Part shown: positions 1-29,816 of the stretch, one piece after another
Numbering within the stretch: the first letter of the stretch is position 1
Layout of the letters: the number at the start of each line of letters is the position of its first letter
DNA from: Theocolax elegans
Lineage: Eukaryota; Arthropoda; Insecta; Hymenoptera; Cerocephalidae
Direction of reading: 5' to 3'
Length of the DNA: 64,000 nucleotides
Assembly: GCA_026168455.1 (NCBI GenBank)
Contig: CM047430.1
Coordinates: 6,427,277-6,491,276, forward strand
The notes under the pieces: generated by a model
The model's database searches: none
The model's input: only the letters and a program-made list of their open reading frames with translations
What the model was told of the DNA's origin: nothing
Translations under genes and position numbers: made by a program

Positions 1-596
1 TAATCTTTACTTAGCGAAACGCGAGAAAAAGGAGTAAACAACTAAATAAGCAACAATGCAATATTTAATTAATAATTAAAATAAATGTATTCAGAAAAAG
101 TAATACAGGCGCGTCGCAGCGCGCGAGACGCAGGTCGATGTATACGCGAAATAAATAAAGAGAGAAAGGGAGAGAGAGAGACTACAAAACTGGCACTTAC
201 AGTGCGTGAGCCGCGGTCGATGATTAAACAACCAGGCGAAGTCTGCGTAGTCGCTACCCTTTAGCTTCCTGGGCTGCGTCGTCGCCAAACAAACTAATAT
301 AACTCCACTGGATCACCAGCACAGCACCAGGATCACAAGCACGGGGCGATCAAAATATGGAGAGAACAAATCACAAGGTTTCTCACGACAGTTGAAATTA
401 ATCGCACGGTTGAATTTTAATCTCTCGGCGGTTGAGATTAATCTAAGTGCTCTCGCACTTACGAACCGAAAACTCTCTCTCTCTTTCCCTACTTTTACCT
501 TTACGAAGGTCCGCGAAAATCGCCGAAAATCGTCGAACGTCGACCTGTAACATCTGTAAAGATTAATACACAGGCTAGACAGAGAGAGAGAGAATG
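1..596. other. Non-coding stretch, no gene recognised
   Basis: No convincing coding potential on either strand: the short open frames here are serine/leucine-rich translations of GA/CT-rich DNA. Short GA runs lie near 161-180 and 581-592. It could be the tail of a transposon whose body lies left of the window, but I recognise no motif that would prove it. Confidence 0.4.
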
Positions 597-641
597 TAAC
601 GAGCAATGTAATATAATCAAATATTACATTGATTCGTTACA
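597..641. repeat. Imperfect inverted repeat (hairpin) next to a TA microsatellite
   Basis: The arms GTAACGA...ATGTAATAT and ATATTACAT...TCGTTAC are complementary around a short AT-rich loop, and a (TA)n tract begins at about 640. This is typical of a transposon terminus or small foldback. I could not define target-site duplications. Confidence 0.5.
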
Positions 642-1725
642 ATATATATATATATATAATGTCGTATACAAACGTTTTAGCGTCATGTTAAAAAATGCTA
701 CCGTTTAATATCTATTCGACCAATTTGGTTCAAAATAGCAACGTTTACTTCTCTATTTATGTAGAAGATATCATAAAAATTTGAGCCAAATGGGTTCAAA
801 ATTGGCTGAGTTATTCTATTAACTTAACTACATACATACTTACACACATACATACTTTTTCAAAAACGTTTAATGACTTATTTTCTGGACGAAGAATGTT
901 TTTATGTATAAATAAACAATTATTTATAGTGTTACATTTTACAACACAGCAAAAAATCATTATTTTTCTCCTGATTTTTTTGGTAGATAAAAATTTTTCT
1001 GTTTCTTCGACACTAGGTCCTCTTAAATCTAACTATTGTCTACTAAATGTACCATACTACTAGTAATTAAATGAATGTGTTTCTGTATTGGTAAAATTTC
1101 AGGCATTTTCCTAAACATTTTTGCAGAAGTGATTTGTTGTTTCAATATTGCTTGATATGTTTGACGACTGGGCAAAAAAATCTAAATTGTTAAATAAATA
1201 ATTTTTTTAACAAATAATTATATTTTTAACTTCTCGAAAATAATTTATTCAAATAATTAATAATCATTTCTGTGAAGCTTTCATCCCTGTGAAAACTGTA
1301 GTCCAAAACCAAGAATTAAAATTATCATACATTAAACATAACCAATAATTGTCACTGACAGGTTCTGTTACGCGCACGCTTCTCGGCAAATTAGATGATT
1401 GACGACCATGTAAGATAAAAGATGACCGTTTAAGATAATAATGAAAAAATAACTAGATCACGCGTGTCTCACTCACTCTTTCGTTTTCCCCTATAGCTCT
1501 GTCTCAACTTTTTCGAGTAGTCATATATATATATATATATAGGAGACGAAAAAGATATCGAAAAATACATAGCCGAGTAAAAGAATTTGAGATCTCAGAT
1601 ATTTACATGAAGTTTTATTGAAAGTATTACTAAATAATTTATCGAAAACTTAATAAACTGAAAAAATATTAAAAAAGAAATAATGTATGATATAAAAAGT
1701 TACGTAAATAACATATTATATATTA
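642..1725. other. AT-rich region without a gene
   Basis: Non-coding AT-rich DNA with (TA)n tracts near 642-658 and 1525-1541 and an ACATAC-type run at about 831-857. I see no coding region or RNA gene. Confidence 0.5.
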
Positions 1726-2113
1726 GTTACAAAATTTTAACGTTCGGTAATATGTATATGTATAATAATATCGGTCTCTCCGAACCAAATGCTTTACTTT
1801 TAGAATAAAGCAGGCCTATCGTACTCTTTGTCCACTATGGTTGGTGGAATTTCCCAGAGCACGGCCTTTTAAAATAATTAAAGGCGTTTCGTCCTCGATC
1901 TCCAGCTTGGACTCCTCAGTAAGGAACTGGAGATCATACCTTAGACGCCTGTCGCAAGATGATATGCGACGCCAGCGAGATGTTCTGCGGCTATATATAT
2001 AGAAAACAGACGACGATCTCTCCAACGAGTGTAGAGAGATAGTCGTCTCCCTCTGGTGGTGGGAAAAGCCACCAGCCAGAGCGCGAATTTTTAGACCGTA
2101 TCGCGAGTTATTT
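1726..2113 (-). mobile_element. 388-bp LTR-like / retrozyme-like unit, copy A
   Basis: First of two direct tandem units with a period of exactly 388 bp (GTTAC starts at 1726, 2114 and 2502). Read on the minus strand the unit runs from TGTAACAAATAACTCG through a TATA-like TATATATAG to a 3' portion ending in ...AAATTTTGTAACA. That 3' portion (the CTGAGGA...GAAACGCC block, a TCCACCAACNATAGTGGAC motif and the TTTTGTA..AACA end) is homologous to the end of the LTR at 33206-33944, so the unit is LTR-derived or LTR-like. The 69-codon open frame inside it appears in all copies only because the copies are nearly identical, and is unlikely to be a protein gene. Each full unit carries a hammerhead ribozyme. 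Confidence 0.75.
1882..1950 (-). ncRNA. Type III hammerhead ribozyme, copy A
   Basis: On the minus strand the order is: stem III strand AGGCGT (1950-1945), cleavage-site C17 (1944), stem I TAAGG/CCTTA closing a 14-nt loop, core CTGAGGA, stem II GTCC/GGAC closing a 14-nt loop, core GAA, then stem III strand ACGCCT ending at 1882. Every conserved core base (C3 U4 G5 A6 G8 A9 G12 A13 A14, the A15.1-U16.1 pair, and H17=C) is present with no spacer between core and stems. Predicted cleavage lies 3' of position 1944. The two hairpin loops share a 9-nt complementary stretch. The family is known for plant retrozymes and viroid-like RNAs; activity here is inferred from sequence. Confidence 0.88.
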
Positions 2114-2501
2114 GTTACAAAATTTTAACGTTAGGTAATATGTATATGTATAATAATATCGGTCTCTCCGAACCAAATGCTTTACTTTTAGAATAAAGCA
2201 GGCCTATCGTACTCTTTGTCCACTATGGTTGGTGGAATTTCCCAGAGCACGGCCTTTTAAAATAATTAAAGGCGTTTCGTCCTCGATCTCCAGCTTGGAC
2301 TCCTCAGTAAGGAACTGGAGATCATACCTTAAACGCCTGTCGCAAGATGATATGCGACGCCAGCAAGATGTTCTGCGGCTATATATATAGAAAACAGACG
2401 ACGATCTCTCCAACGAGTGTAGAGAGATAGTCGTCTCCCTCTGGTGGTGGGAAAAGCCACCAGCCAGAGCGCGAATTTTTAGACCGTATCGCGAGTTATT
2501 T
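2114..2501 (-). mobile_element. 388-bp LTR-like / retrozyme-like unit, copy B
   Basis: Second direct copy, nearly identical to copy A, with differences such as GTTAGG for GTTCGG near the left end, one base in the ribozyme and one in the AT-rich side. With no internal retrotransposon sequence between A and B, the array is a head-to-tail concatemer. That is what LTR-LTR recombination or reverse transcription of a multimeric or circular RNA would leave. Confidence 0.75.
2270..2338 (-). ncRNA. Type III hammerhead ribozyme, copy B (GUU site)
   Basis: Same 69-nt fold as copy A, but the nucleotide at position 17 is U instead of C (the plus strand reads AAACGCCT rather than AGACGCCT at the right end). 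H17 may be A, C or U, so the motif is still formally permitted, but GUU sites generally cleave less well than GUC. All stems and the other core bases are unchanged. Confidence 0.8.
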
Positions 2502-2631
2502 GTTACAAAGTTTGTACACCAACCATAGTGGACAAAGAGTACGATAGGCCTGCTTTATTCTAAAAGTAAAGCATTTGGTTCGGAGAGACCGATATTATTA
2601 TACATATACATATTACCGAACGTTAAAATTA
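2502..2631 (+). mobile_element. Junction and partial 388-bp unit in inverted orientation
   Basis: After copy B the array flips. From about 2519 the plus strand repeats the 3' portion of the unit (the ACCAACCATAGTGGAC motif through the CGTTAAAATT end), and the next unit starts at 2632. This partial copy begins downstream of the ribozyme and so lacks it. The flip makes the locus an inverted repeat of more than 350 bp per arm, an unstable arrangement prone to template switching or mis-assembly. Confidence 0.65.
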
Positions 2632-2990
2632 TGTAACAAATAACTCGCGATACGGTCTAAAAATTCGCGCTCTGGCTGGTGGCTTTTCCCACCACCAGAG
2701 GGAGACGACTATCTCTCTACACTCGTTGGAGAGATCGTCGTCTGTTTTCTATATATATAGCCGCAGAACATCTTGCTGGCGTCGCATATCATCTTGCGAC
2801 AGGCGTCTAAGGTATGATCTCCAGTTCCTTACTGAGGAGTCCAAGCTGGAGATCGAGGACGAAACGCCTTTAATTATTTTAAAAGGCCGTGCTCTGGGAA
2901 ATTCCACCAACCATAGTGGACAAAGAGTACGATAGGCCTGCTTTATTCTAAAAGTAAAGCATTTGGTTCGGAGAGACCGATATTATTATA
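2632..2990 (+). mobile_element. 388-bp LTR-like / retrozyme-like unit, copy C
   Basis: Full-length unit on the plus strand apart from its last ~30 bp, which are replaced by AT-rich sequence after 2990. It starts TGTAACAAATAACTCG at 2632, has a TATA-like TATATATAG at about 2751, a GTCGC/GCGAC hairpin just before 2801, and then the ribozyme. On this layout a transcript begun about 30 bp downstream of the TATA element would carry the ribozyme near its 5' end. Confidence 0.72.
2801..2869 (+). ncRNA. Type III hammerhead ribozyme, copy C
   Basis: Stem III is AGGCGT 2801-2806 paired with ACGCCT 2864-2869 (6 bp). C17 is 2807, with predicted cleavage between 2807 and 2808. Stem I is TAAGG 2808-2812 with CCTTA 2827-2831. 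The core CTGAGGA is 2832-2838. Stem II is GTCC 2839-2842 with GGAC 2857-2860. GAA is 2861-2863 and A15.1 is 2864. Loop I (2813-2826) contains GATCTCCAG and loop II (2843-2856) contains CTGGAGATC, a perfect 9-bp loop-loop complement. The same 9-mers could instead form an extended hairpin that would hide the core, so an active/inactive switch is possible. Confidence 0.88.
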
Positions 2991-4235
2991 CATATTATAT
3001 ATTAATATTCAAAAATAAAAAAACCGCAGGTGCAGTTAGATGTCTAATAGGTGCTAGCGCGCATTATACTTGCGTTGGTTGCGCTACCGCGCACCTTGAT
3101 GTACAAAAAAATATTATTATCTATAATTTTACAAAAATTTTTTTTATATACATTATTTGATTTACTTCTAAGTATCTAAGTTGGATAATTACATTTCATT
3201 AATTACTTGAAATCACATGTCAAATTACTTTTATCAAACGATAAATTATTTGTTAAATAAACAAGTTTTTATTTCAAATATTTACTATATATTATTACTT
3301 CAAATAAAATTTTCAGTATATGGTTTAAATATAAATTTTAAATGTAATTTTTTAAAATACGTTATAACAATATTTAAATCGATTTATGAATAGATATTAT
3401 CTACGCACAACAGAAATTTTAATTGAACATTTTATTGAAGTATAAATTATCAATGAACGCCATCTAATCAACGCATATCGAATTACAAATTACCGACATA
3501 GTGTGCTGCCCCCTCCATGAATTTCAAAAACTAAAGAGTGGCTCTGATTGGTGGGCGGAAAAACGTCACATCGGTCTCTCATTGGTAGGCGTTTTGTTCC
3601 CTGGGCGAAATGATCCCCATTCTCAATATGTCCCCATAAGCAAGAAATGCCAGAAAATTAATTTCCCTTGAGGCCCCATACCAGATTCGAAATTAAACAT
3701 CCAACATTCAAAATTCATTTTACCCCGTATGCTAGAAATGACGTAAATCAATTACTCTCATTACCCCTGGAACACAAATACAACAAAATCTTTTTCCATA
3801 CTTATAAGCGAGAAGTGCAATAGAATTAATTTCCAATAAACTATAAATGCAACCGGGCTGCAAGATAGCACTTTCTTCAACCGGTCTTCGAAACAGCACC
3901 TTAAACCTCTCAGTCGTCGATATCGAGTTAAAAATATAGTATGTAAAAATAAAATAGTTATATATAATATTAATCATACCTCGTATATCACATATAATAG
4001 CATTATATCGTTGAATTACAAATAAATTTTGTACCGAAAAACGAAATCCCGATCACGATAAATTTATTAATATACAATAAATATATAAATAAATATACAT
4101 TTACCTTCCTACTTTGCCTCCATATAAGCCCTACGATCACGCTAATCTATAGCGCGTAACTGGCAGCCACCTATCGGCCGTAACTGGTACTACCGTGAGC
4201 AAGTGCAGTAGTCATATTTCAAAACTGTTTCGTTA
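2991..4235. other. AT-rich region, no gene recognised
   Basis: Mostly 70-80% AT, non-coding. Around 3490-3720 composition rises and there is a promoter-like cluster of CCAAT and GC boxes, listed separately. At about 4140-4195 the phrase CGTAACTGG occurs twice 32 bp apart. No RNA gene or open frame with family resemblance. Confidence 0.5.
3536..3592. promoter_or_regulatory. CCAAT/GC-box cluster, possible promoter remnant
   Basis: Two inverted CCAAT boxes (CTGATTGGTGGGCGG and CTCATTGGTAGGCG) lie 40 bp apart. The first abuts a GGGCGG Sp1-type box and is followed by CGTCAC, a half CRE. This combination is frequent in metazoan promoters. No coding exon or transposon ORF starts nearby, so the assignment is only by motif. 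Confidence 0.25.
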
Positions 4236-4278
4236 CTGTATCATCAATTAAACAAAAGTTGTTTAATTGATGATACAG
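4236..4278. repeat. Near-perfect 20-bp hairpin
   Basis: CTGTATCATCAATTAAACAA is followed by a three-base loop and then its exact reverse complement. Related words (CTGTATCACCAATAAAAC near 4463, CTACATCATCAATG near 5584) recur in the adjacent foldback region, so this is probably one terminus of that element. Confidence 0.65.
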
Positions 4279-4882
4279 AGTACTAAAATTGGCAGAAAGT
4301 ATATTCTAGTAACAATTATAACTAATATTAGTATAAATTGTTCGTTTCTGATAAATACATAAGGCTTTCTACACTATTAAATTTTATAGAAAGTTTCAAT
4401 ATATTATATATAAAATAATAATAAATAAATATAACAATACTTTCTGACAAGTTTAGTATGCTGTATCACCAATAAAACAATATAAATTATTATTTTAATG
4501 TATAATACAGTTCCCAACATAGAGAACCCAGTATACTGCCTTGCGCTATTTTTTTAAATACAAGTTTTTATTAGTAGTTCTGTAAAATAATTATTATACC
4601 ACTTCACTATGTATTTATAAAGATTCTACATAATTTTACCAATTAATTCATGTGCTGTAAAGATACTATTTTTTTAATTACACCTTTTTTTATATGTAAC
4701 TTATACAACACAATAGTTTTCTGCATTTAACAGTACTGAAATTAAAAACACCTTCCAAGAAGGTATGACAATCCACAAGTATAGTGTTTTTCTAAACAAA
4801 CTTATCAAAATTCTTGTCTGATAAATACATATCTTTAATTCGACCTCCCATATTTTTCTATTTCTTTAAATACTAATTACAC

Positions 4883-4920
<38 letters not shown>

Positions 4921-6660
4921 CTTATACTCCATAATAGTTTTCTGCTGTTGAAAAAACTGAAATCAAACTGGAATCGACAAGTATTTTAAAATAAATAAAT
5001 ATCTTTGATCCTAACTCCCATATTTTTTATACTTATTTATATTTTAATTACACATTTTTATAAGTAATTTATACTCCATAATAGTTTTCTGCAATTGAAA
5101 GTACTAAAATCGAAAACACCTTTCAAAAAGGTATCAAAACCCGCAAGTATTGTGTTATTCTAATCAAACTTTGAAAATTGTTATCTGATAAATAAATATA
5201 TTTTTCTATTTCTATAAATACTAATTACACTTTTTTTATATATAACTTATACACCATAATAGTTTTCTGCTGTTGAAAGAACTAAAAACAAACTGGAATC
5301 GACAAGTATTTTGAAATAAATAAATATTTTTGATTCTAACTCCCATATTTTTTCTACTTATTCATATTTTAATTACACCTTTTTATAAGTAATTTATAGT
5401 CCATAATAGTTTCTTTTAAATAATAAAATAATACTTGCACCACCGTTAGTTAAACGCTTCATATATGTGTTAATTCTGACTTACTAATGTATTCCTTCAC
5501 ATTTATGAAAGTATAATACCGTGAAGAAACTGCAATGAGTAATAATAAATGAATATAGCAATACTTTCTGGCAATTTTATTATCCTACATCATCAATGAA
5601 AAAATAGACATCATTACTTTATCTAATAAAGTTCCCTAAAGAGGCCTAACCAAAGGTGGTGCAAGTATTAATTTATTATTTAAAAGAATAAAAAAGAAAT
5701 GTCCATTTTATTAGTATTGCAGAAATTAATTTTGCACAAATTAATATCATTAGAATATTATTTATTTATTACTGTAAAACATGTGAGGGCCAGAAATGAA
5801 CAATAATAGTGTAAGATACTTTTCATAAAAAAAATCTGTATTCAGATTGGTAGAAATTTTTGCATCGTTCAAAATACTTGTCGATTACAGTTTGATTTCA
5901 GTGCTTTCAATTGCAGAAACTTTTTACGAAGTTTAAGTAATATATATAAAAATGTTTATTTAAAATATAAATTTATGGTACGATTCAAAATACTTGTCGA
6001 TTTCAGTTTGATTTCAATTCTTTCAATTGCAGAAATTTTTTATACGAAATTTTCGTAATATTTAAAAAAATGTTTAATTAAAATTCAAAGAAATAGATTA
6101 AATAAGGTAGTTAGAATGAAAATTATTTATTTATTAGATAACAATGTCAGATTGAATTGCAGAATTTATATATCAGATAACAATTTTCAAAGTTTGATTA
6201 GAATAACACAATACTTGCGGGTTTTGACACCTTCTTGGAAGGCGTTTTCGAATTGAATACTTTCAATTGCAGAAAAATATTATGGAATATAAGTTAGATA
6301 TAGAAAAGGTGTAATTAAAATATAAATAAGTAGAGAAAATATGGGAATTAGAATCAAAGATATTTTTATCTTATACTTTAAAATTTATCAGACATATAAC
6401 AATTTTATTTATCAGATAACAATTTTCAAAGTTTGATTAGAATAACAACACAATACTTGCGGGTTTTGACACCTTTTTGAAAGGTGTTTTTGATTTCAGT
6501 ACGTTCAATTGCAGAAAACTATTATGGAGTATAAATTACTTATAAAAAGGTGTAATTAAAATATGAATAAGTAGAAAAAATATGGGAGTTAGAATCAAAA
6601 ATATTTATTTATTTCAAAATACTTGTCGATTCCAGTTTGATTTCAGTTCTTTTTTATGCT
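4279..6660. repeat. Foldback-like region with repetitive inverted arms
   Basis: A block of about 245 bp at 4960-5205 recurs almost exactly in inverted orientation at 6400-6650. Within the left arm it is also directly repeated at about 5283-5410, and more divergently at 4741-4930, with a spacing of 320-365 bp. An inner inverted pair around TACTTGCACCACC (about 5430 and 5655) brackets a ~210-bp core. Arms built from tandem repeats are typical of Drosophila FB-type elements. I find no transposase. A pure (TA)n tract occupies 4889-4918. Exact termini are uncertain. Confidence 0.6.
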
Positions 6661-7509: not shown

Positions 7510-10500
7510 AAATATCCAGGAAATCCCGTAATTAGTGGAGTCTTTCTGAAATATTTCAGCAATTCCCAAAATTTCTAGGAAATCCCGTAACTTATAGCGT
7601 CATCCCGAAATACCTCATAAATTCCCGAAATATCCTGGAAATTCCACAATTAATGGAGACATTTCGAAATACCTCAGAAATTCCCGAAATATCCAGGAAA
7701 TCCCTTAATTTGTAGAGTTATCCACAAATACCACATAAATTCCCGAAATATCCAGGAAATACCATAATTAGTGGAGTTTTTTTTTAAATATTTCAGAAAT
7801 TCCCGAAATATCCAGGAAATTCCACAATTAGTGGAGACATTTCGAAATACCTCAGAAATTCCCGAAATATCCAGGAAATCCCGTAATTAGTAGCGTCATC
7901 CCGAAATAAATCAGAAATTTCCTAAATATCCAGGAAATACCATAATTAGTGGAGTTTTTTTTTAAATATTTCAGAAATTCCCGAAATATCCAGGAAATTC
8001 CACAATTAGTGGAGACATTTCGAATTTCCACAGAAATTCGCGTAATATCCAGGAAATCCCGTATTTGGTAGAATCATCCCGAAGTACCTCGGAATTCCCA
8101 AAAGATCCAGGAAATCCCGTAATTGGTAGATTCATCCCGAATTTCCTCAGATATTCCCGAAATATCCAGAAAATCCCTTATTTAGTAGAGTTATCCAGAA
8201 ATACCTCAGAAATTCCCAAAATATCCAGGAAATTCCGTTATTATTGGTGATATCCCGAATTTCCTCAGAAATTCCCGAAAGATCCAGGAAATCCCGTAAT
8301 TGGTGGAGTCAGCACGAATTTCCTCAGATATTGCCGAATATCAAGGAAATCCCGTAATTAGTAGCGTCATTCCAATCCCGTAATTAGTAGAGTTATCCAG
8401 AAATACCTCAGAAATTCCCGAAATATCCAGGAAATCCCTTAATTTGTAGAGTTATCCAAAAATACCACAGAAATTCTCGAAATATCCAGGAAATACCATA
8501 ATTAATGGAGTTTTTTTTAAATACCTCAGCAATTATCGAAACATCCAGGAAATCCCGTAATTGGTAGAATCATCACGAAATTCCTCAGATATTCCCGAAA
8601 TATCAAGGAAATCCCGTAATTAGTAGCGTCATTCCAAAATATCTCAGAAATTCCCGAAATATCCTGGAAATCCCGTAATTAGTATAGTTATCCAGAAATA
8701 CCTCAGAAATTCCCCAAATATCCAGGAAATCCCTTAATTTGTAGAGTTATCCAAAAATACCACAGAAATTCTCGAAATATCTAGGAAATACCATAATTAG
8801 TGGAGTTTTTTTTAAATACTTCAGCAATTACCGAAAGATCCAGGAAATCTCGTAATTGGTAGAATCGTCACGAAATTCCTCAGATATTCCCGAAATATCA
8901 AGGAAATCCCGTAATTAGTAGCGTCATTCCAAAATATCTCAGAAATTCCCGAAATATCCTGGAAATCCCGTAATTAGTATAGTTATCCAGAAATACCTCA
9001 GAAATTCCCCAAATATCCAGGAAATCCCTTAATTTGTAGAGTTATCCAAAAATACCACAGAAATTCTCGAAATATCCAGGAAATACCATAATTAGTGGAG
9101 TTTTTTTTTAAATACTTCAGCAATTACCGAAAGATCCAGGAAATCTCGTAATTGGTAGAATCGTACGAAATTCCTCAGATATTCCCGAAATATCCAGAAA
9201 ATCCCGTAATTATTAGTCATCTCGAATTTTTTCAGAAATTCCCGAAATTTCCAGAAAATCCCGTTATTATTGGTGTTATCCCGAATTTACTTAGAAATTT
9301 CCGAAATATCCTGGAAATCCCGTAATTAGTAGAGAGATCCAGAAATACCTCAGAAATTCCCGAAATATCCAGAAATTCCCGTAATTGGTAGCGTCATCTC
9401 GAAATACCTCAGGAATTCCCGAAAGATCCAGGAAATTCCGTAATTATTAGTCATCACGAAATTCCTCAGATATTCCCGAAATATCCAGAAAATCCCGTAA
9501 TTAGTGGAGTCTTTCTGAAATATATTCAGAAATTCCCGAAATATCCAGGAAATTCCGTTATTATTGTTGTTATCCCGAATTTCCTCAGAAATTCCCTAAA
9601 GATCCAGGAAATCCCGTAATTGGTAGAGTCATCACGAAATTCCTCAGATATTTCCGAAATATCAAGGAAATCCGGTAATTAGTAGCGTCATTCCGAAATA
9701 TCTCAGAAATTCCCGAAATATCCTGGAAATCCCGTAATTAGTATGGTTATCCAGAAATACCTCAGAAATTCCCCAAATATCCAGCAAAATCCTTAATTTG
9801 TAGAGTTATCCAAAAATACCACAGAAATTCTCGAAATATCCAGGAAATACCATAATTAGTGGAGTTTTTTTTGAAATACCTCAGCAATTACCGAAAGATC
9901 CAGGAAATCTCGTAATTGGTAGAATCGTCACGAAATTCCTCAGATATTCCCGAAATATCCAGAAAATCCCGTAATTATTAGTCATCTCGAATTTTTTCAG
10001 AAATTCCCCAAATATCCAGGAAATCCCTTAATTTGTAGAGTTATCCAAAAATACCACAGAAATTCTCGAAATATCCAGGAAATACCATAATTAGTGGAGT
10101 TTTTTTTTAAATACCTCAGCAATTACCGAAAGATCCAGGAAATCTCGTAATTGGTAGAGTCATCACGAATTTCCTCAGATATTCCCGAAATATCCAGAAA
10201 ATCCCGTAATTAGTAGCGTCATTCCAAAATATCTCAGAAACTCCCGAAATATCCTGGAAATCCCGTAATTAGTATAGTTATCCAGATATACCTCAGAAAT
10301 TCCCCAAATATCCAGGAAATCCCTTAATTTGTAGAGTTATCCAAAAATACCACAGAAATTCTCGAAATATCCAGGAAATACCATAATTAGTGGAGTTTTT
10401 TTTTAAATACCTCAGCAATTACCGAAAGATCCAGGAAATCTCGTAATTGGTAGAATCGTCACGAAATTCCTCAGATATTCCCGAAATATCCAGAAAATCC

Positions 10501-12436
10501 CGTAATTATTAGTCATCCCGAATTTTTTCAGAAATTCCCGAAATTTCCAGAAAATCCCGTTATTATTGGTGTTATCCCGAATTTACACAGAAATTCCGAA
10601 ATATCCTGGATATCCCGTAATTAGTAGAGAGATCCAGAAATACCTTAGAAATTGCCGAAATATCCAGAAATTCCCGTAATTGGTAGCGTCATCTCGAAAT
10701 ACCTCAGGAATTCCCGAAAGATCCAGGAAATTCCGTAATTATTAGTCATCACGAAATTTCTCAGACATTCCCCAAATATCCAGAAAATCCCGTAATTAGT
10801 GGAGTCTTTCTGAAATATTTCAGAAATTCCCGAAATATCCAGGAAATTCCGTTATTATTGGTGTTATCCCGAATTTTTACCTCATAAATTCCGAAATATC
10901 CAGGGAATTCCGGTATTAGGTGGAGACTTTCTGAAATATTCAGAATTCCCGAAAGATCCAGGAAATTCCGTAATTATTAGTCATCACGAAATTTCTCAGA
11001 CATTCCCCAAATATCCAGAAAATCCCGTATTAGTGGAGTCTTCTGAAATATTTCAGAAATTCCCGAAAATATCCAGGAAATTCCGTTTATTATTGGTGTT
11101 ATCCCGAATTTCCTCAGAAATTCCCGAAATATCCAGAAAATCCCGTAATTAGTGGAGTCTTTCTGAAATATATTCAGAAATTCCCGAAATATCCAGGAAA
11201 TTCCGTTATTATTGTTGTTATCCCGAATTTCCTCAGAAATTCCCGAAAGATCCAGGAAATCCCGTAATTGGTAGAGTCATCACGAATTTCCTCAGTTATT
11301 CCCGAAATATCAAGGAAATCCCGTAATTAGTAGCGTCATTCCAAAATATCTCATAAATTCCCGAAATATCCTGGAAATCCCGTAATTAGTATGGTTATCC
11401 AGAAATACCTCAGAAATTCCCCAAATATCCAGGAAATCCCTTAATTTGTAGAGTTATCCAAAAATCCCACAGAAATTCTCGAAATATCCGGGAAATACCA
11501 TAATTAGTGGAGTTTTTTTTGAAATACCTCAGCAATTACCGAAAGATCCAGGAAATCTCGTAATTGGTAGAATCGTCACGAAATTCCTCAGATATTCCCG
11601 AAATATCCAGAAAATCCCGTAATTATTAGTCATCTCGAATTTTTTCAGAAATTCCCGAAATTTCCAGAAAATCCCGTTATTATTGGTGTTATCCCGAATT
11701 TACTCAGAAATTTCCGAAATATCCTGGAAATCCCGTAATTAGTAGAGTGATCCAGAAATACCTCATAAATTCCCGAAATATCCAGGAAATTCCGTAATTA
11801 GTGGAGACTTTCTGAAATATTTCAGAAATTCCCGAAAGATCCAGGAAATCCCGTAATTAGTAGAGTGATCCAGAAATAGCTCAGAAATTCCCGAAATATC
11901 CAGGAAATTCCGTAATTAGAGGAGTCTTTCTGAAATATTTCAGAAATTCCCGAAATATCCAGGAAATTCCGTAATTAGTAGCGTCATCCCGAAATACCTC
12001 AGCAATTCCCGAAAGATCCTGGAAATCCCGTAATTGGTAGAATCATAACGAATTTCCTCAGATATTCCCGAAATATCCAAAAAATCCCGTAATTAGTGGA
12101 GTCTATATGAAATATTTGAGAAATTCCCGAAATATCCAAGAAATCCCGTAATTAGTAGTCATCCCGAATTTTTCTAGAAATTCCCGAAATATCCAGAAAT
12201 TCCCGTAATTAGTAGCGTCATCCCGAAATACCTCAGGAATTCCCGAAAGATCGAGGAAATTCCGTAATTGGTAGAGTCATCACGAATTTTCTCAGATATT
12301 CCCGAAATATCCAGGATATCCCGTAATTAGTGGAGTCTTTCTGAAATATTTCAGAAATTCCCGAAATATCCAGGAAACCTCGTAATTAGTCGACTCATCC
12401 CGAATTTCCACCGAAATTCCCGAAAGATCTAGGAAC
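7510..12436. repeat. 59-bp satellite array with higher-order repeats
   Basis: About 4.9 kb of head-to-tail units, roughly 83 copies, built on the phrases GAAATTCCCGAAATATCC, AGGAAATCCCGTAATTAGT and GGAGTCATCCCGAAATACCTC. Successive GAAATTC starts are 59 bp apart (for example 8411 and 8470). Variant monomers recur at multiples of 59: the CCATAATTAGTGGAGTTTTTTTT variant lies at 8496, 8791 and 9086 (295 bp apart, five monomers), then 9850, 10085, 10381 and 11499. This is a higher-order repeat. The short open frames inside it are satellite translations, not genes. Confidence 0.93.
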
Positions 12437-12975
12437 TGTTTGTCATAATTCCAGGGACACATAAAGTCTTAAAAAGATATTGTTTATTTACATAATTATT
12501 TACAGTAAAATGGGAATTCACAGAAAAATGCTTATTTTAGATATATTTCTAAATATAATTTGTTATTAATATTACAAATAATATATATTTATTATAATTT
12601 TTAAATACATACAGTTTATACCTGGCACCACGACAATTAATTGTTGACAACAAAATTAATTATCGGTTGTGCAATTGTAATAATTAATGGTAAAATGTAT
12701 GTATAAAAAGTTGTACGTACGTACGTACGGACGTACGTACGTACGCGGACTACTGAAACTTCCAAGCCAAAAAACTAATAAAAAACGACTCTTTAAAAAA
12801 TTTGTAATAGTGGTAAATTTATCCTCGTATCAATGCGATCACAATGGACTCATAAAAAATGACATTCACTAAATATTTTTTACAGTATAAGGGGTTTTTA
12901 CAGAAAAATTCACAATTTCACTTATAAAATTTTAATATTATGTATGTAGATTACTTAAGTCGACTGTAGTATAAC
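12437..12975. other. AT-rich flank with a TACG microsatellite
   Basis: No gene. An interrupted (TACG)n tract lies at about 12713-12746. The rest is AT-rich non-coding DNA between the satellite and the Penelope-like element. Confidence 0.5.
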
Positions 12976-13386
12976 TAAATTAATTAATATTGTTATCGGT
13001 CTTACAGTCAATTATATGGGCAGTTAGATTGCCCCTACTTATAATCACCCCCGAAGAATCTATAAAAATAAAAATAAAAAATAAAAACTAAAAACACTAA
13101 CTGAAAATAAAAATAAATTATTAATAAAGCAATGTGACTGCCCCCCCCCCCGCACCAAAAATCTACTAACCCCAAATATGCTGTCCGACGTTTCGAGCTC
13201 GCTGCTGCTCCTCATCAAGGACTGAAATGAAAAACTATTCCACACGATATTTATACCCTCAAAAAAGCCTCCCCACTCCAAGGACCCACACCTAAATAAA
13301 TTCACATCAATAAACTAAGTTAAGTTAAGATAGGATGATAAATCTTATTTAATTTACTTGACTCTAACATTAAATTAACATTCTTA
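12976..13386 (-). repeat. Penelope-like terminal repeat, left copy (inverted)
   Basis: Nearly identical in reverse complement to 14625-15024, covering the hammerhead, a poly-C tract (13141-13151), the GGGCAGTNAGATTG motif and the GACTGTAAGACCGAT end. Inverted pseudo-LTRs flanking an RT/GIY-YIG body are characteristic of Penelope-like elements. This copy carries a mutated ribozyme. Confidence 0.8.
13183..13222 (-). ncRNA. Type I hammerhead-like motif, mutated core
   Basis: Minus strand: GTCC, TTGATGA, a GAGC/GCTC stem II, GAAA, CGTC, GGAC. Stem I (GTCC/GGAC) and stem II are intact but the core begins U instead of C (C3 to U), a base normally essential for cleavage. It is otherwise identical to the intact copy at 14782-14821. 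Confidence 0.75.
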
Positions 13387-13980
13387 TCATGTCTTAAATA
13401 TATGAATATTCTCAAGACTTTCTCTTTTAGATTTATTCATAATATTTTGTTCTAAAATTTCTACATTATTAAAATCAAATGAATGAACAAAATCTAAACA
13501 ATTCTCTTTCAAACCTGATGTGAAAGATACACTCCTGAAACTATATTTATGTTCATAAATTCTCTTTTTCAAATATCTACTAGTTTGACCAATGTAACAC
13601 TTATCACAATCAATACAATTTACTTTATAAACAACTCCAGATTTATCATCCTTTCTATCTCTATCCTTACAATTATTAAACAAAAAACTTAAATTATTAA
13701 TATTTCTAAAAAAAACTTGAATATCTAGTTGTTTAAATTCTTTTCTTATTCTTTCAGATAAACCTCTAACATACGGTATAACAACAAATGCATCATTTTT
13801 AATATCTACTCTAACTTTTAATTTACTATTATAAATTTGATACACTCTCTCTTCGATCACTCTATTAATCAAACCTATCGGATAATTATTATTAACAAAA
13901 GTTTTTTTAACTAAATTCAAATTTATTTTTCTAAAATCACCGTGTGACAGTCCAACGGCACGGTCAATAACACCTTTCAA
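13387..13980 (-). pseudogene. Penelope-like element, GIY-YIG endonuclease end of the polyprotein
   Basis: About 197 residues. The C-terminal third has the hallmark Penelope GIY-YIG nuclease pattern: VVYKVNC, then CDKCYIGQTSRYLKKR, then EHK. The preceding residues (VVIPYVRGLSERI) match the linker between RT and endonuclease in this class. The nuclease makes the target nick for reverse transcription. The frame is separated from the RT piece upstream (14110-14540) by about 130 bp without an uninterrupted joining frame, so the element is decayed, though the nuclease domain itself is open. It probably ends at the TAA near 13387, just inside the left terminal repeat. Confidence 0.85.
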
Positions 13981-14109
13981 CGCACCAATCTTGTCACTGA
14001 ACTGGTGATGAGAATGGAAATTTAAAAATCTACCCGACCAAGTAGGCTTTCTATACCAATTTAATTTAACTTGATTTTTATCATCCCTAATAACTTTAAT
14101 ATATAAAAA

Positions 14110-14624
14110 ATTTTATTCTTTATCAATCTCAACCTCTACTGTAAATTTAATTCTATCATGAATTGAATTAAAAACATCAACCATTTCATCAACAAAACAT
14201 TCAGGTACTATCGTAAAGATGTCATCAACAAATCTAATAAAAATCATTGGTTCAAAACTCAATTTTGACAAAGCAATACCCTCTAACTTTTCTATTACTA
14301 AATTAGCTATTACAGGTGACAACGGTGATCTCATTGGGCAATGTATTATTAAATACTAAATTAAGTGCTTTGGTAAATTCATTAATATCTAAAATAGTAT
14401 ATAAACTAATATCTGACCATTTTTCTATTATTATATCATTCACAAAATCTAAAGGAACGTTTGTAAACAAAGATACAACATCCAATGAGATCATTTTACA
14501 ATTATTCGGAATAATCACATCTTTCATCGTATTATAAAAACTCCAACTATCTTTAAGATAAGAATTTGTTTTACCAACTACATTAAGAACTACATTATTT
14601 ATTATATTTAAGAATGATAAGAAT
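14110..14624 (-). pseudogene. Penelope-like reverse transcriptase fragment
   Basis: Two overlapping frames on the minus strand hold RT motifs: KMISLDVVSLFTNVPLD (14527-14303 frame; the palm-A motif typical of Penelope RTs) and, shifted by one frame, SPLSPVIANLVIE followed by IRFVDDIF (14334-14113; the catalytic DD motif as FVDD). The join near 14310-14330 is a frameshift. The N-terminal RT and upstream domain are missing: the coding part stops where the right terminal repeat starts, so the element is 5'-truncated. Confidence 0.82.
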
Positions 14625-15024
14625 GTTAATTTAATGTTAGAGTCAAGTAAATTAAATAAGATTTATCATCCTATCTTAACTTAACTTAGTTTATTGGTGT
14701 GAATTTATTTAGGTGTGGGTCCTTGGAGTGGGGAGGCTTTTTTGAGGGTATAAATATCGTGTGAAATAGTTTTTCATTTCAGTCCCTGATGAGGAGCAGC
14801 AGCGAGCTCGAAACGTCGGACAGCATATTTGGGGTTAGTAGATTTTTGGTGCAGGGGGGCAGTCAGATTGCTTTATTAATAATTTGTTTTTATTTTCAGT
14901 TAGTGTTTTTAGTTTTTATTTTTTATTTTCGTTTTTATAGATTCTTCGGGGGTTATAATAAGTAGAGGCAATCTGACTGCCCATATAATTGACTGTAAGA
15001 CCGATAAAAATATTAATTAATTTA
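14625..15024 (+). repeat. Penelope-like terminal repeat, right copy
   Basis: Inverted partner of 12976-13386. It contains an intact hammerhead core and, further right, the GGGCAATCTGACTGCCC / GACTGTAAGACCGAT end. The high similarity of the two arms argues that the element is not very old despite the broken ORF, or that the arms have been homogenised. Confidence 0.8.
14782..14821 (+). ncRNA. Type I hammerhead ribozyme of Penelope class
   Basis: Stem I GTCC (14782-14785) with GGAC (14818-14821); core CTGATGA (14786-14792); one unpaired G; stem II GAGC (14794-14797) with GCTC (14806-14809); GAAA (14810-14813); then CGTC with the cleavage site after 14817. Stem III is only A-U/C-G with no loop, which is usual for Penelope-type hammerheads and suggests they work as dimers. 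Core bases are all present. Confidence 0.85.
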
Positions 15025-15039
15025 TATACATATATATAT

Positions 15040-16688
15040 GGGTGGTTCTCTGTGACATCGAAGATGAAAAAAATAAATATTGCTATAACTGTGGGAATAT
15101 GTTTTAGAGGTATCCAGTAGTTCTGAATTTTTTCAGATTTTTTCTGGGCCATTATTTTAAGTTACAGAGAGTCAAAGTTGACATTTTAGCACTTTTTTGC
15201 ATTATATGCCCATTTTCATGAATTTTTAGCTCCCAGGGGATGAATTTTTCACTAAAAACATAAGTATGACTTTTTTTGTAAAATTTTCCGAACTTTTCAT
15301 TAAAAATACTTTTAAAGACATAAATGTATGCTGTCACACTCTTGTAAGCCATTTAAACCTTAAATAGTGAAAATCAGCAATTCTGCTCCGGACTCTGGTA
15401 ACCTAATACTGTCTAAAAGATGTCTTTTTATACTCAGAAACTGCCTAAAAATTTCCAGAGTGGGTCTAAATCATTAAGATCACTTATGGTCATAATATTC
15501 GGGAAAAGTGCCCGAAATATTAATAGAAATGTATATTTGTTGCCTTATAACGATGAATCTAGTAGCATGATCATTGCAAAAAAATTTGTGCACTTACCTT
15601 GGAATGGTAGAAAAGTATCTCCACTTGTTTCAGTATCCATCTAATCCCCTGTAAGCTGCTAAAAACACAAATATTATTATAAAATTATAAAAAATTATCT
15701 TTTAAACATTTATAATGCTGGATTTTTAGTTTTAAATCCCTTACAAGAATTATAATACTAATCTGAAGGATTACTATAAAAGTATCAACATTATTATTAT
15801 TATTCAGCAATACATTCTTTAGATTTCACAAACTTGTCACTGTCACGTTATCATATTATTCATTATAATTATATATCCGATTTATTTATATATCTTTTGT
15901 ATTAAATACGTATATTCAGTTATTGTAATAATGATGTTTATATATTTATAGTAATCCTTCAGATTAGTATTATAATTCTTGTAGGGGATGTAAAACTAAA
16001 AATTCAGCATTATAAATGTTTAAAAATTAATTTTTTACATTTGTATAATAATATTTGTATTTTTAGCAGCTTACAGGGGATTAGATGGATACTGAAACAA
16101 GTGAAGATACTTTTCTACCACTCCAAGGTAAGTGCACAAATTTTTTTGCAATGATCATGCTAATAGATTCATCGTTATAAGGCAACAAATATACATTTCT
16201 ATTAATATTTCGGGCACTTTTCCCGGATATTTTGACCATAAGTGATCTTAATAATTTAGACCCACTCTGGAAATTTTTAGGCAGTTTCTGACTATAAAAA
16301 GACATCTTTTAGACAGTATTAGGTTACCAGAGTCCGGAGCAGAATTGCTGATTTTCACTATTTAAGGTTTAAATGGCTTACAAGAGTGTGACAGCATACA
16401 TTTATGTCTTTAAAAGTATTTTTAATGAAAAGTTCGGAAAATTTTACAAAAAAAGTCATACTTATGTTTTTAGTGAAAAATGCATCCCCTGGGAGCTAAA
16501 AATTCATGAAAATGGGCATATAATGCAAAAAAGTGCTAAAATGTCAACTTTGGCTCTCTGTAACTTAAAATAATGGCCCAGAAAAAATCTGAAAAAATTC
16601 AGGAGAACTACTGGATACCTCTAAAACATATTCCCACAGTTATAGCAATATTTATTTTTTTCATCTTCGATGTCACAGAGAACCACCC
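15040..16688. mobile_element. 1.65-kb palindromic (foldback) element
   Basis: Starts GGGTGGTTCTCTGTGACATC and ends with the reverse complement. Arms are about 741 bp (15040-15780) and 744 bp (15945-16688), near-identical, with a 164-bp AT-rich centre. It is flanked by TATATA on both sides, so the target duplication could be TA, TATA or longer. Both arms give the same open frames (66 and 74 codons) on opposite strands, simply because the arms are copies. No transposase, RT or known domain is visible. Class unknown; the structure suits a non-autonomous DNA transposon. Confidence 0.75.
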
Positions 16689-16709
16689 ATATATGTATAT
16701 ATATATATT

Positions 16710-18250: not shown

Positions 18251-18887
18251 GTGTAGCAAAACTGTTGAAGATTGTCATACATCACACAGTTTCAAGGGAA
18301 ACACTGATTCAGTAAAGATTTTAACAAAACTTAATTCAATTTATGATAAAAATTTTCTAAAAGCTGTTTATCCAGTGCAAGACGATAAGGAAAAAGAATC
18401 CCATCCAATGTTAAAATATATAAAACATCAAGCAATTGATTCTTTTTATTCTCCACTGGCTACTCTTTTAAAAGGTGCAGTTATTATATCTGAAGAGCTT
18501 TTTACAGACATTTTACGGGTTGCATGGGAGTTGCTATTAGAAATGAATCAAGAAGTTGCTGCATCGGCAGCTTCGTTATTTATCGTAGCTGCAGTTCGTG
18601 CTCCATCTCAGGCTACTGATATTATGCATCGTGATTTACAACACTTAAACCCACTAATACGAATTAATTCGGTATTAAAATTTCAAATATTATGGAAATT
18701 TAGATACCAAGTTTGGCCTAGAATGGAAGAATCAGCGCACTTGACATTTAAAGTTCCGCCTCCGGGAATTGAATTTACTTTACCTTCACCGAAAATTGGT
18801 ATTGAATCATTACCTGTTATTGATCCACCTTGGATGCCACAAGTCAAAACAAAGGTTGAAGAGGTTACAATCAATCAAGAGCGCCAC
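18251..18887 (+). CDS. unc80: UNC80 (NALCN channelosome subunit), following internal exon
   Basis: 637-nt exon with acceptor TTTTTTACAG (ends 18250) and donor GTAAGA (18888). Across the 89-bp intron the reading frame is kept (codons ACG AA/G TGT). It contains the strongly conserved UNC80 segment: LKYIKHQAIDSFYSPLATLL, AWELLLEMNQEVAASAASLF, LWKFRYQVWPRMEESAHLTF and PPPGIEFTLPSP, then DPPWMP. No stop or frameshift interrupts it. The next exon is not found in the ~2 kb before the gypsy element, so either this sits beside a very large transposon-filled intron or it is a partial gene copy. Confidence 0.88.
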
Positions 18888-19689
18888 GTAAGAACTTTAC
18901 ATATTCTAATTTTAGTAATTAATTGCATAACTTTATGGAGACAATTTGTCTCGTCCTTGAGGTGCTAAAATTTATTAAAAATTATTACATTTATTACAAT
19001 GGAATAGTTACATTAATTATATTCAGTAGCATCAATTTATCATATTTCGCAAAAATTAGGCTAAATATTTTTTACAATCAATCTATTAACCCTTCAGTCA
19101 CAGTGGAAGCCTGAGCATCCCACCTAAACATTATTTCCATAACCTATCATTATTATAATGATAATAAAGCTTGAATTTCACCTTCCATTGTTAATTTATA
19201 AAATTGAAAGGATTATTTTTTTCTTGAGGGCCAGGTATGTTTTTTTAGTTTAAATAAATAAATTAACCATTTTTATGTTAAGTGCAATGTTTCCTTGGCA
19301 AAATTTACCAACCTCCTCAGACTAAACAAAATAATTTTCATTAATAAATCACACAATCGGAAAACTAATATAAACTTAAATCAACACAAAGACAGTTTAC
19401 GTTATTAATCTGACAAAAATCTCATCGTACTGAATATATACAATCATTTTCACCTATCTATATATAAATTAGTGTCAAACAAGTACGTAATGTGAACGCA
19501 TGTTACTAACCATAATTAAACCTTTTATTTTCAATTCCTTAGAAAAGGGAAATAAGCTTTATTCAAAGAATATATGACCTCTTTCTTATTTATACTATTG
19601 TTTCTGAAATAATTCTACTTTTATAATTAAATTCTACATCTAAACTTGTTATCTGTTTTCAATTAAATTCATGATTATAATTTAACGAA

Positions 19690-24121: not shown

Positions 24122-25117
24122 GGGGTATTCCACGTGAAGTGGTCCGATCAAAATTTTAAAATGCACCAAATTTTGGGTACACTTTGCAAATGTTTTTCAG
24201 AATACAGAAAAAAATTTTTAGGTACTGGAATCTATTTGCTCAAAAGTTATTCTAACCTCAAAAAGTGAATTTTTCCATATTTTTTTCAACACCAGCTGGG
24301 TTTACCGCTATATAACTCAAAATCTATCAACTTTTACTATAGAACATTATATGTAACATTCGTTGCTAATTATATCTAGAATTTATTCTTCTGGGTTAGA
24401 ATTTCTAATCTCAAGGTCAATGTTACATAAACTACATGTCAATATTCAACTTGAAAAAAGTGCAAGTGCGCCACCTTTGATTTTTTCATCCAAAAGTCTA
24501 AAAGAAAGCTTGGAGCAATACCTTTCAAATGGTCTGTAGCATTTTTATGGCCTCCAATTCTGTAATAAGTTATGACAATTTAAAGGAACACGAAATTTTT
24601 TTAAAAATTTAAATGGGAATTACCATGTTAATTTTTGTGAATTTTTTGTCTTTCTTTAAATTGTCATAACTTTTTACAGAATTGGAGGCCATAAAAATGC
24701 TACAGACCATTTGAAAGGTATTGCTCCAAGCTTTCTTTCAGACTTTTGGATGAAAAAATCAAAGGTGGCGCACTTGCACTTTTTTCAAGTTGAATATTGA
24801 CATGTAGTTTATGTAACATTGACCTTGAGATTAGAAATTCTAACCCAGAAGAATAAATTTTAGATATAATTAGCAACGAATGTTACATATAATGTTCTAT
24901 AGTAAAAGTTGATAGATTTTGAGTTATATAGCGGTAAACCCAGCTGGTGTTGAAAAAAATATGGAAAAATTCACTTTTTGAGGTTAGAATAACTTTTGAG
25001 CAAATAGATTCCAGTACCTAAAAATTTTTTTCTGTATTCTGAAAAACATTTGCAATGTGTACCCAAAATTTGGTGCATTTTAAAATTTTGATCGGACCAC
25101 TTCACGTGGAATACCCC
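24122..25117. mobile_element. 1.0-kb palindromic insertion in gypsy 1
   Basis: Arms of 464 bp each (24122-24585 and 24654-25117) start GGGGTATTCCACGTGAAG, with a 68-bp centre. The arms differ by only a few bases. It lies directly beside the 0.4-kb element in the same TATA-rich target. No coding capacity. It resembles the 1.65-kb palindrome in architecture but not in sequence. Confidence 0.8.
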
Positions 25118-27545: not shown

Positions 27546-27564
27546 CCCAAAAATTCAATTAATA

Positions 27565-29816
27565 ACGTTTTTCCAAGCGATTTTTCAGTTAACGTATTCT
27601 CCAAGCGAATTCTTAGTTAACGCGTGTTCCAAGCGATTTCTCAGTTAAATCGTTCTCCAAGCGATTTCTCAGTTAACGTGTTCTCCAAGAGAATTCTGAG
27701 ATAACGTATTCTGCAACCAAATTCCGTGTTAATGCGTTGTCCAAGCAATTTTTGAGTAATAGTGTTCTGCAACTTAAATGTTATTTAACGTATTTTCCAA
27801 GGGATTTTTTAATTAAAGTATTCCCAACGTATTGTTTAACCAATTTCTGAGAAAACGTGTTTTTCAAGCGATTATTGAGTTGACGTGTCCTCAAAGCGAT
27901 TTCTAAATTAACGTGACTTTCAAGCGAATTCTGAGTTTACGTATCCTGTAAGCGAATAATGAGTCAAAGTTCTTCCCAAGCGAATTCTGAGGTAACCATT
28001 TCTGTAAGCGTTTTTTCAGTTGCCGTTTTCTCCAACCAGACTCTGGGTTAGCTTGTTTTCCAAGCGATTTTTAAGTTAATATATTCTACAACTAAATTCT
28101 GAGTTAACGTGTTCTCCAAGCGAATTCTGCGTTAACGTGATTTCCAAGCGAATTCTGAGTTAACCTGTTTTTCAAGCGATTTTTGAAATAACGTGTTTTC
28201 CTAGTGATTATTGAGTTAACGTATTCTGCAACCGAATTCTGAATTAATGTGGTCTCCAAGCGTTTTCTGACTTACCATGTTATTTAATCGAGTTCTGAGT
28301 TAACGCATTCTCAATGCGTAATCTGAGTTAAAGTGTACTCTAAGCGCTTTCTCAGTTAACGGGTTTTCCCAGCGATTTCTGAGTTAACATATTCTTCTAG
28401 CAAACTCTAAGTTAACGTGTGTTCCAATCGATTTTCAAATTAATGTATTCTGCAACCAAATTCTGATTTAACGTGTTCTCTAAGCGTTTTCTCAGTCAAT
28501 GTATTCTCCAAGCGAGTTCTGAGTTTAATTAGTGTCCAAGCGAATTCTGAGTTAACGAGTTCTCCAAGCGATTTCTCATTTAACGTGTTCGCTAAGAGAA
28601 TTCTGAGTCAAGGTATTCTTCTACCGAATTCTGAATAAACGGGTTTTCGATGCGATTTCTGAGTTAACGAGTTCTCCAAGCGATTTCTCATTTAACGTGT
28701 TCTCTAAGAGAATTCTGAGTCAAGGTATTCTTCTACCAAATTCTGAATAAACGGGTTTTCGATACGATTTCTGAGTTAACGTTATTTTCAAGCGAATTCT
28801 GAGTTGACGTATTCTCCAAGCGAATACTGAGTCAACGTTTTTCCCAAGCGAATTCTGAGGTAACCTTTTCTGTAAGCAATTTTTCAGTTACCGTTTTCTC
28901 CAACCAGAATCCGAGTTAGCTTGTTTCCAAGCGATTTCTGATTTAACCTGTATTCCAAGCAATATTTGAGATAACGTGTTTTTCTAGTAATTTTTGTGTT
29001 AACGTATTCTGCAACCGAATTCTGAGTTAACGTGTTCTCCAAGCGTTTTCTCAGTTAACATGTTCTCCAATCGAGTTCTGAGTTAACATGTTCTCCACGC
29101 GATTTCTCAGTTAACGTATTTTCTAACCGAATTCTGAGTTATCCTGTTTTCCTAGCCATTTTTGAAATCACGTGTTTCCTGGCGATTTTTCAGTAAACGT
29201 ATTCTCAAAGCGATTTTGAGTTCACGTATTCTGCAACCAAATTATGACTAAACGTGTTCTTCAACCAAATTCTGAGTTAGCGTATTATCAAAGCAAATTC
29301 GGAGTTAACCTGTTTTTTAAGCGATTTTTGTGATAATGTGTTTTCCAAACGATTTCTGAGTTAACGTGTGTTCCAAGTGATTTTTGAGTATACGTGTTCT
29401 CCAAATAAATTCTTATTTAACGTATTTTGCAATAGATTTTAGAATTAATCTATTCCCAACCAAATTCTGAGTTAACGATTTCGCCAAGCGATTTCTCAGT
29501 TAACGTGTTCTCCAAGCGATTTTTATGTTAACATATTCTGCAACCAAATTCTGAGTTAACGTGTACTCCAAGCGATTTCTCAGTTAACGTATTTATCAAG
29601 CGAATACTGAGTGATAGTTGTTCCCAATCAAATTGTGAGGTTACCATTTCTGTAAGAGATTTTTCAGTTACCGTTTTCTCCAACCAGACTCTGAGTTAGC
29701 TTGTTTTCCATGCGATTTTTGAGTTAACATATTCTGCAACCAAATTCTGAGTTATCGTGTTCTTCAAGCGATTTCTCAGTTAGCGTCTTCTCCAAAAGAA
29801 CTCCGAGTCAACGTAT
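27565..29816. repeat. 28-bp minisatellite array
   Basis: About 80 tandem units of CCAAGCGATTTCTCAGTTAA plus CGTGTTCT, with strong variation between units (CGAATTCTGAG and CAACCAAATTCTGAG variants). The period is 28 bp at the start (27568-27680). Each unit holds a GTTAAC palindrome and many hold GAATTC. No coding capacity. It adjoins a Penelope fragment, and a small related cluster at 20325-20455 is also near Penelope relics. Confidence 0.9.

Follow-up and report, generated by a model that had tools for sequence, protein, structure and literature searches.

Tandem type III hammerhead repeats in Theocolax elegans: a probable non-autonomous animal retrozyme with Penelope-like insertion scars

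Published animal retrozymes carry type I hammerhead ribozymes, and the partner that mobilises them has been inferred only (PMC7229834, PMC7761336). Their repeats are described as holding no conserved motif that would reveal this partner, with Penelope-like elements (PLEs) as likely candidates (PMC7761336). Here we analyse a 64,000-nt stretch of the genome of the hymenopteran Theocolax elegans (GCA_026168455.1, contig CM047430.1, forward-strand positions 6,427,277 to 6,491,276; hereafter the window, numbered from its first letter), which contains an insertion of tandem 388-bp units with type III hammerheads. The family of this unit is called fam1 below, and a second family of about 510 bp from the same genome fam2. 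The probable reading, in our view, is that fam1 represents an animal retrozyme which has a type III hammerhead, lacks autonomy and is mobilised by a PLE. From the scars left at its insertion sites, it seems to move in the form of an RNA circle that the PLE enzyme copies.

The PLE enzyme of a lizard cuts and extends both strands of its target, prefers AT-rich DNA and starts reverse transcription (RT) at two adjacent internal sites 30–40 nt apart, which explains the PLE "tail" (PMC11167929). Rotifer PLEs are most often arranged head-to-head, with 8–10-bp duplications; in one copy the tail measures 31 bp, the inverted pseudo-long terminal repeat (pLTR) is 37 bp shorter, and the duplication is 9 bp long (PMC3846280). 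Pseudoknotted type III hammerheads are known from hepatitis delta virus (HDV)-like RNAs, termites, dipterans and Drosophila pseudoobscura; a structure search yielded no further similar hammerheads in hymenopterans, hemipterans and a cockroach, and unpublished work on dipterans is cited (PMC7936874). Insect elements with type III hammerheads have also been mentioned as unpublished and in preparation (PMC7761336). Type III hammerheads in insects, to which a preliminary description of this locus had drawn attention, are already on record as reported isolated motifs (PMC7936874) and as elements mentioned without publication (PMC7761336). No described animal type III retrozyme was found in the literature, a search whose scope excluded subscription papers and preprints and which is not proof of absence.

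The insertion occupies positions 1726–2996 of the window and consists of two cDNA arms arranged head-to-head between 15-bp direct repeats, the copies of the target-site duplication at 1711–1725 (ACATATTATATATTA) and 2990–3004, recognised by comparison of the flanks with mismatched flank pairs as the control. The direct arm (minus strand, 788 nt, read from 2513 to 1726) covers phases 377–388, 1–388 and 1–388 of the unit and includes two complete tandem units at 1726–2113 and 2114–2501 (98% matches; TRF and BLAST). Its outer end is the usual site TTTTGTAAC at phase 388, and it starts at 2513, 12 nt earlier than the unit boundary given in the preliminary description. The inverted arm, found like the direct one by BLAST of the unit against the window, lies on the plus strand (2517–2996, about 480 nt) and runs through phases 268–388 and then 1 to about 359: it opens with a partial copy of 121 nt, continues from 2638 with one further, last unit ending near phase 359, and overlaps the right duplication at its end with the microhomology ACATAT. 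Where three full 388-bp units had been described, the two minus-strand units hold, whereas the plus-strand unit comprises about 359 of the 388 nt, although the whole ribozyme lies inside it. No open reading frame (ORF) of at least 120 aa overlaps positions 1–6000 of the window, and the ORF with RT and GIY-YIG domains that marks an autonomous PLE is lacking there. A truncated relative, 75% identical to the unit and beginning within the ribozyme, was found by BLAST at 33222–33376 on the minus strand; by eye, its insert continues to about AAAATTTTGTATTAA, with CAATTTTAATAAA on both flanks, and the presence of this old copy suggests a long family history.

A search of the 658-Mb genome of T. elegans with the 388-bp unit gave at least 242 matches, those listed being 96–100% identical and distributed over 36 places; these counts are lower bounds. 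Of 55 units, full or nearly so, from the loci that match best (L019–L048), all keep the core elements CUGANGA and GAA, and 48 have every stem paired. The further copies that the preliminary description had proposed to seek by BLAST are present in number, and together with their core they support its view of a multi-copy, tandem, non-autonomous retroelement with complete type III hammerheads and circle-sized monomers. At 388 bp, fam1 has the format of metazoan non-LTR retrozymes, i.e., tandem hammerhead repeats of 150–450 bp without a long terminal repeat (LTR), and fam2 lies somewhat above this range at about 510 bp; the type I hammerhead of those retrozymes is replaced by type III in both. 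Fam2, with units of about 480–514 bp, supplied the 14 genome-wide RF00008 matches listed at an E-value of 0.001 or better. The ribozyme class is common to the two families, and a wider similarity between them was rejected, as comparison outside the ribozyme gave short AT-rich matches only. Long tandem arrays exist in both. L013, L015 and L017 are long, satellite-like fam2 arrays of about 513-bp units on small contigs, with about 18 units in view in L015.

Both borders were tabulated for 16 fam1 insertions; L031, L032 and L034 (C7, 34.6 Mb) were counted once because they share their flanks, and L055, whose repeat is element sequence, as well as the ambiguous L054 were dropped. Most of the tabulated insertions have head-to-head arms between duplications of 11–16 bp, mostly 13–14 bp. 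One outer end lies at phase 387–388 (..TTTTGTAAC) in 15 of the 16, and the inverted arm ends at phase 353–366 in 13, the exceptions being L024 (230), L049 (321) and L031, which has no inverted arm. Flank duplications of at least 11 bp were found in 14/16 fam1 insertions compared with 5/272 mismatched pairs, in which the left flank of one insertion was combined with the right flank of another and to which L055 still contributed. The corresponding figures are 6/7 and 1/42 for fam2, and 3/4 and 0/12 for the PLE introduced below (counted by script). The offset between the two fam1 end sites is 22–35 nt, on the low side of the published 30–40 nt. Fam2 has two kinds of ends as well, near phases 498–507 and about 454–470, at six loci (L009–L012, L016 and L018). 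Two-site ends, head-to-head arms and AT-rich targets as in PLEs are all present in fam1, AT-richness being judged from the printed flanks. Twin priming of a single RNA with small deletions fits the window insertion; the scatter of the phase gaps between arms led us to reject it as the form that holds in general.

A member of the candidate mobilising family is located in the window itself, as a head-to-head PLE at about 12940–15020 (no strand assigned; ends and copies compared) with a GIY-YIG ORF at 13387–13980 on the minus strand (Pfam E-value 7.6e-5). Judged by eye against the consensus, this PLE carries what we take to be the minimal type I hammerheads of such elements at 13180–13224 (minus) and 14780–14824 (plus); the Rfam scans did not report these two motifs. 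Two head-to-head arms are present in five of six PLE copies (the window copy and L057–L061). The direct arm ends in ..TAATATTTTATTAA and the inverted arm in ..AATTAATTTA, about 35–40 nt earlier. Duplications of 13 bp were recognised by eye at L057, L058 (one mismatch), L059 and L061, and no target duplication was found for the window copy.

Fam1, fam2 and the PLE alike have a hairpin flanked by the end sites, with AGACCGA opening its loop or standing close to that point; the inner site lies in the AT-rich part of the loop and the outer site in the tail that follows the hairpin. The hairpin reads GACTGTA-[AGACCGATAAAAAT..]-TACAGTC in the PLE, in whose window copy both cDNA arms contain GACTGTA-[AGACCGATA...] as the 5' side of the hairpin with its loop, GTTCGG-[AGAGACCGATATTATT..]-CCGAAC in fam1, and GCTCAGCA-[AGACCGACAAAATT..]-TGCCTGGGC in fam2 (L009–L012, L014 and L018), where AGACCGA lies in the hairpin loop of six of the seven dispersed loci. 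Within the window insertion, the fam1 3' hairpin and tail, the proposed region of PLE RT initiation, is found at 1726–1785 (copy A, minus; GTTCGG-[AGAGACCGAT...]-CCGAAC, phases 329–372 plus the tail to 388; identified by fold and shared motif), at 2114–2173 (copy B, minus; one stem base changed, CCTAAC) and in the partial plus-strand copy at 2578–2637, the latter two by BLAST and motif. As far as sequence can tell, the ends, duplications and hairpin of fam1 match the published two-site RT tail of PLEs.

The three window motifs belong to copies A (1882–1950, minus, C17; RF00008 E-value 6.9e-6, 36.5 bits), B (2270–2338, minus, U17; 7.9e-5, 32.8 bits) and C (2801–2869, plus, C17; 6.9e-6, 36.5 bits). 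The three motifs were also examined with a descriptor, and cleavage is predicted between 1944 and 1943 (minus) in copy A and between 2807 and 2808 (plus) in copy C. All three contain an open stem III of 6 bp, a stem I of 5 bp, CUGAGGA, a stem II of 4 bp and GAA; they have the CUGANGA...GAA core, the three stems opening at stem III and the H17 of type III hammerheads, as U17 is still an H. The full core that had been claimed for these 69-nt motifs, including U17 in copy B, was found exactly so. Among the fetched copies, the C-to-T change at position 17 is confined to the window insertion. The E-values stem from a scan of 1,351 bases that followed an empty scan at the gathering cut-off: the RF00008 search proposed in the preliminary description did locate the three motifs, but none of them reaches the gathering score of 48.5. 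A further model, R2, recovered them at E-values of 2e-21 to 1.3e-20, two of the motifs having belonged to its training set.

Loop 1 (GAUCUCCAG / UAUGAUCUCCAGUU) and loop 2 (CUGGAGAUC / AAGCUGGAGAUCGA) of fam1 form a perfect 9-bp complement, which 48 of 200,000 shuffles of these loops also attained. The best fam2 copies have a perfect 12-bp complement between the two loops, matched by none of 200,000 shuffles; in other fam2 copies the complement is broken. In a fold without pseudoknots, stems I and II give way to pairing between the two loops, so any hammerhead activity would have to depend on a pseudoknot or on the order of folding. The 9–12-bp loop complement may also serve as a lock, in that an alternative nested hairpin might silence the ribozyme once the circle is sealed.

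With regard to the template, private variants in both arms of single insertions are hinting at circles. C29T occurs twice in the genome: each arm of the insertion at C3:77696979-77698162 has a single unit that covers the position, and both of these carry the change. C33G occurs three times, always within C7:14457029-14458590 (L024), where it is found in both arms and in three full units. Further shared changes (G108A/T109A and G224A) recur in a second insertion and mark subfamilies, and the overall distance between units (4.4 differences within groups compared with 5.0 between them) gives no support by itself, because the arrays are mixed and only private variants speak. On a monomer cleaved at phase 170/171, copying from phase 388 could go no further than 171. 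Among the 29 fam1 arms of 15 insertions (all of the 16 except L030), 28 extend across the cut site, with 39 crossings in total, and none of the 29 has its inner end there.

Alternatively, a PLE might have mobilised fam1 by copying a long linear multimer transcribed from an array, the ribozyme being a passenger or active at another stage. We regard this as unlikely, though as an explanation of some weight, for the long arrays mentioned above would permit arms longer than one unit. Furthermore, a minus-strand-only array of more than 13 units (L028/L039, C3:28916348 to about 28921574; flanks and phases), which is not in the table of 16, shows a duplication of 13 bp, one side of which has 25 nt of filler. 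This array has its outer end at phase 355 and lacks a 388 end, and its inner end falls at the ribozyme cut, at phase 169–171. Its sequence suggests a cleaved linear multimer as the simpler template, which would itself suggest a working ribozyme; among the roughly 30 inner ends examined, one chance match to the cut site is not rare. In the fam2 locus L016, an arm stops at phase 178, close to the ribozyme cut of this family at 175/176. At the C33G locus a neighbouring partial unit (phases 1–230) lacks the variant, which is present in three of four units, as a mixed multimer would give; because this locus is rearranged and has no duplication, recombination and a mixed template are both possible. 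In the published PLE assay, unprocessed RNA is the dominant substrate, which argues for linear templates (PMC11167929). On the other side, besides the arms that cross the cut site, C29T is confined within the assembly to one insertion, both arms of which carry it, C33G is found in the two arms of another, and a linear transcript would require a source array for such private variants, of which none was found. For the C29T insertion a circle appears to be the likelier template, which need not hold for all insertions.

The remaining explanations dispense with a PLE. Variable 11–16-bp duplications and inversions also occur in long interspersed nuclear elements (LINEs; non-LTR, L1-like), whose machinery could have generated the head-to-head form by ordinary twin priming. 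There are RT ORFs in the window, one of them at 36965–37492, and the window arms lie about 17 nt apart in phase, as twin priming of a single RNA would give. Yet we consider LINE machinery improbable, given that fam1 has no poly-A or simple-repeat 3' end, that the inverted arm ends within the narrow range of 353–366 in 13/16 insertions (the tabulated control being mismatched flanks, not LINEs), that arm phase gaps vary widely in the other insertions, and that the resident PLE resembles fam1 in its end offset, in the length of its duplications and in its hairpin motif. A chance reverse transcription of a viroid-like or satellite RNA would leave a DNA record with the unit size, type III hammerhead and circular template resembling viroid-like RNAs (PMC11721086). 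RF00008, however, matches a single polarity of the unit, the at least 242 matches come with a PLE-like 3' signal, and two dissimilar families show the same layout, all of which renders this origin highly improbable. The tandem arrays (some of them long in both families) and inverted copies might also point to common satellite DNA or to a DNA transposon flanked by terminal inverted repeats. Such an origin has a very slim chance and is contradicted for the dispersed copies by the varying duplication length, the outer ends differing by 22–35 nt in phase, the scattered inner ends and the numerous dispersed insertions; local growth of arrays by recombination may still occur. The "plant-like architecture" of the preliminary description did not survive inspection of the insertion ends. 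A plant-type LTR retrozyme in an insect would share the type III hammerhead in repeats of about 350–400 bp, but no flanking LTR pair was seen, the duplications measure 11–16 bp instead of 4 bp (PMC7229834), the arms are head-to-head and the start sites internal, so that ends, arms and duplications are PLE-like and the probability of such an element is negligible.

If fam1 is indeed a PLE-mobilised retrozyme, a genomic copy would first be transcribed, and the hammerhead, held by the 9-bp pseudoknot between loops 1 and 2, would cut multimers at phase 170/171, whereupon the monomer would be ligated into a circle of about 388 nt; the sequence fits both cutting and ligation. A presumed PLE protein would then recognise the 3' hairpin with AGACCGA at or near its loop start and would cut both strands of an AT-rich target at positions about 13 bp from each other, in keeping with the scars seen in the genome. 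From each of the two target ends, RT would begin at an internal site of the template, phase 388 or about 353–366 inside the hairpin loop, start sites that were read from the genomic ends. It would often circle the template more than once, the circle being supported but not proven. Joining of the two cDNA arms head-to-head and repair of the site would finally give rise to the 11–16-bp duplication observed in the scars. More tentatively, and with less than even confidence, animal retrozymes in general might be RNA-circle parasites of PLEs that carry the PLE RT-start hairpin, each insertion being double-ended rolling-circle cDNA of one RNA.

Apart from the signs of linear templates and the narrow phase gap in the window, several observations weigh against PLE mobilisation of an active type III retrozyme. 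The three window motifs lie below the RF00008 gathering score, an Rfam scan of the whole window at the gathering cut-off gave no match, and fam1 is not among the 14 genome-wide matches listed. The minimum-energy fold without pseudoknots pairs loop 1 with loop 2 and leaves stems I and II open. Variable sites number 20 of 69 in the ribozyme compared with 104 of 275 in the rest of the unit, which gives no significant excess of conservation in the ribozyme, and variation is greatest in the 3' hairpin (24 of 44 sites); purifying selection on the ribozyme was accordingly judged unconvincing, and no selection is claimed. The stability of the hairpins is not unusual compared with shuffles (fractions 0.395, 0.105 and 0.20), and the hairpin motif is mostly AGACCAAC in L016, a dispersed locus of fam2, as well as in the fam2 arrays L013, L015 and L017. 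With respect to the scars, L022 lacks the phase-388 end, L024 and L030 have no clean duplication, and the shared flank of L044 sits in an AT repeat. The PLE copies L057–L059 were picked for paired matches, and the share of head-to-head PLEs does not come from a random sample.

Compared with the metazoan non-LTR retrozymes of Cervera and de la Pena (2020; PMC7229834), fam1 differs by its type III hammerhead with an extended loop-loop complement, and whereas their partner is inferred only, the scars at the ends of fam1 insertions, together with the common hairpin, indicate a PLE. It resembles PLEs (PMC11167929, PMC3846280) in the head-to-head arms, the AT-rich targets, the two end sites, and a stem-loop at the RT start with a hammerhead nearby, but has no ORF, a length of 388 bp, a canonical type III instead of a minimal type I hammerhead, and duplications mostly of 13–14 bp instead of the 8–10 bp of rotifer PLEs (PMC3846280). 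With plant LTR retrozymes it has in common the type III hammerhead, the non-autonomous retroelement nature and the circular intermediate, which is proposed in fam1 (PMC4918200, PMC7229834), but neither the LTR nor the 4-bp duplication (PMC7229834). The type III topology and Watson-Crick pairing of loops 1 and 2, in insects too, are shared with the hammerheads of PMC7936874. Those of toad and termite RNAs, however, use an internal loop and a short GCCR/YGGC contact, in contrast to the 9- and 12-bp terminal-loop complements of fam1 and fam2, and those of termite genomes are isolated motifs rather than tandem mobile units (PMC7936874).

The enzyme that moves animal retrozymes is treated as an open question in PMC7761336, and the scars and hairpin of fam1 would answer it if confirmed; a PLE partnership could be tested with the published PLE enzyme assay (PMC11167929). 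The division into type I for animals and type III for plants is no rule for mobile elements, and fam1 and fam2 supply natural type III hammerheads with long loop-loop complements.

Elsewhere in the window, TRF detected two large tandem arrays at 7510–12435 and 27563–29795, with periods of 59 bp and 28/56 bp. A long inverted repeat recognised by eye at 15040–16690 recurs at the flank of L020 on C6 and is probably a dispersed foldback-like repeat. Long hairpins at 24508–24731 and 30782–30998 match plant microRNA models below their cut-offs and are more likely to be palindromic repeats than microRNAs. An exon of UNC80 at 18375–18968 on the plus strand (Pfam E-value 1.7e-77) places the window beside or within this host gene. 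A hammerhead pattern scan for phage relatives returned 14 viral_contigs stretches (L062–L075), whose hammerheads, inspected by eye, have a closed stem III (type I topology) and were set aside as unrelated; some of these phage hammerheads sit just upstream of an ATG.

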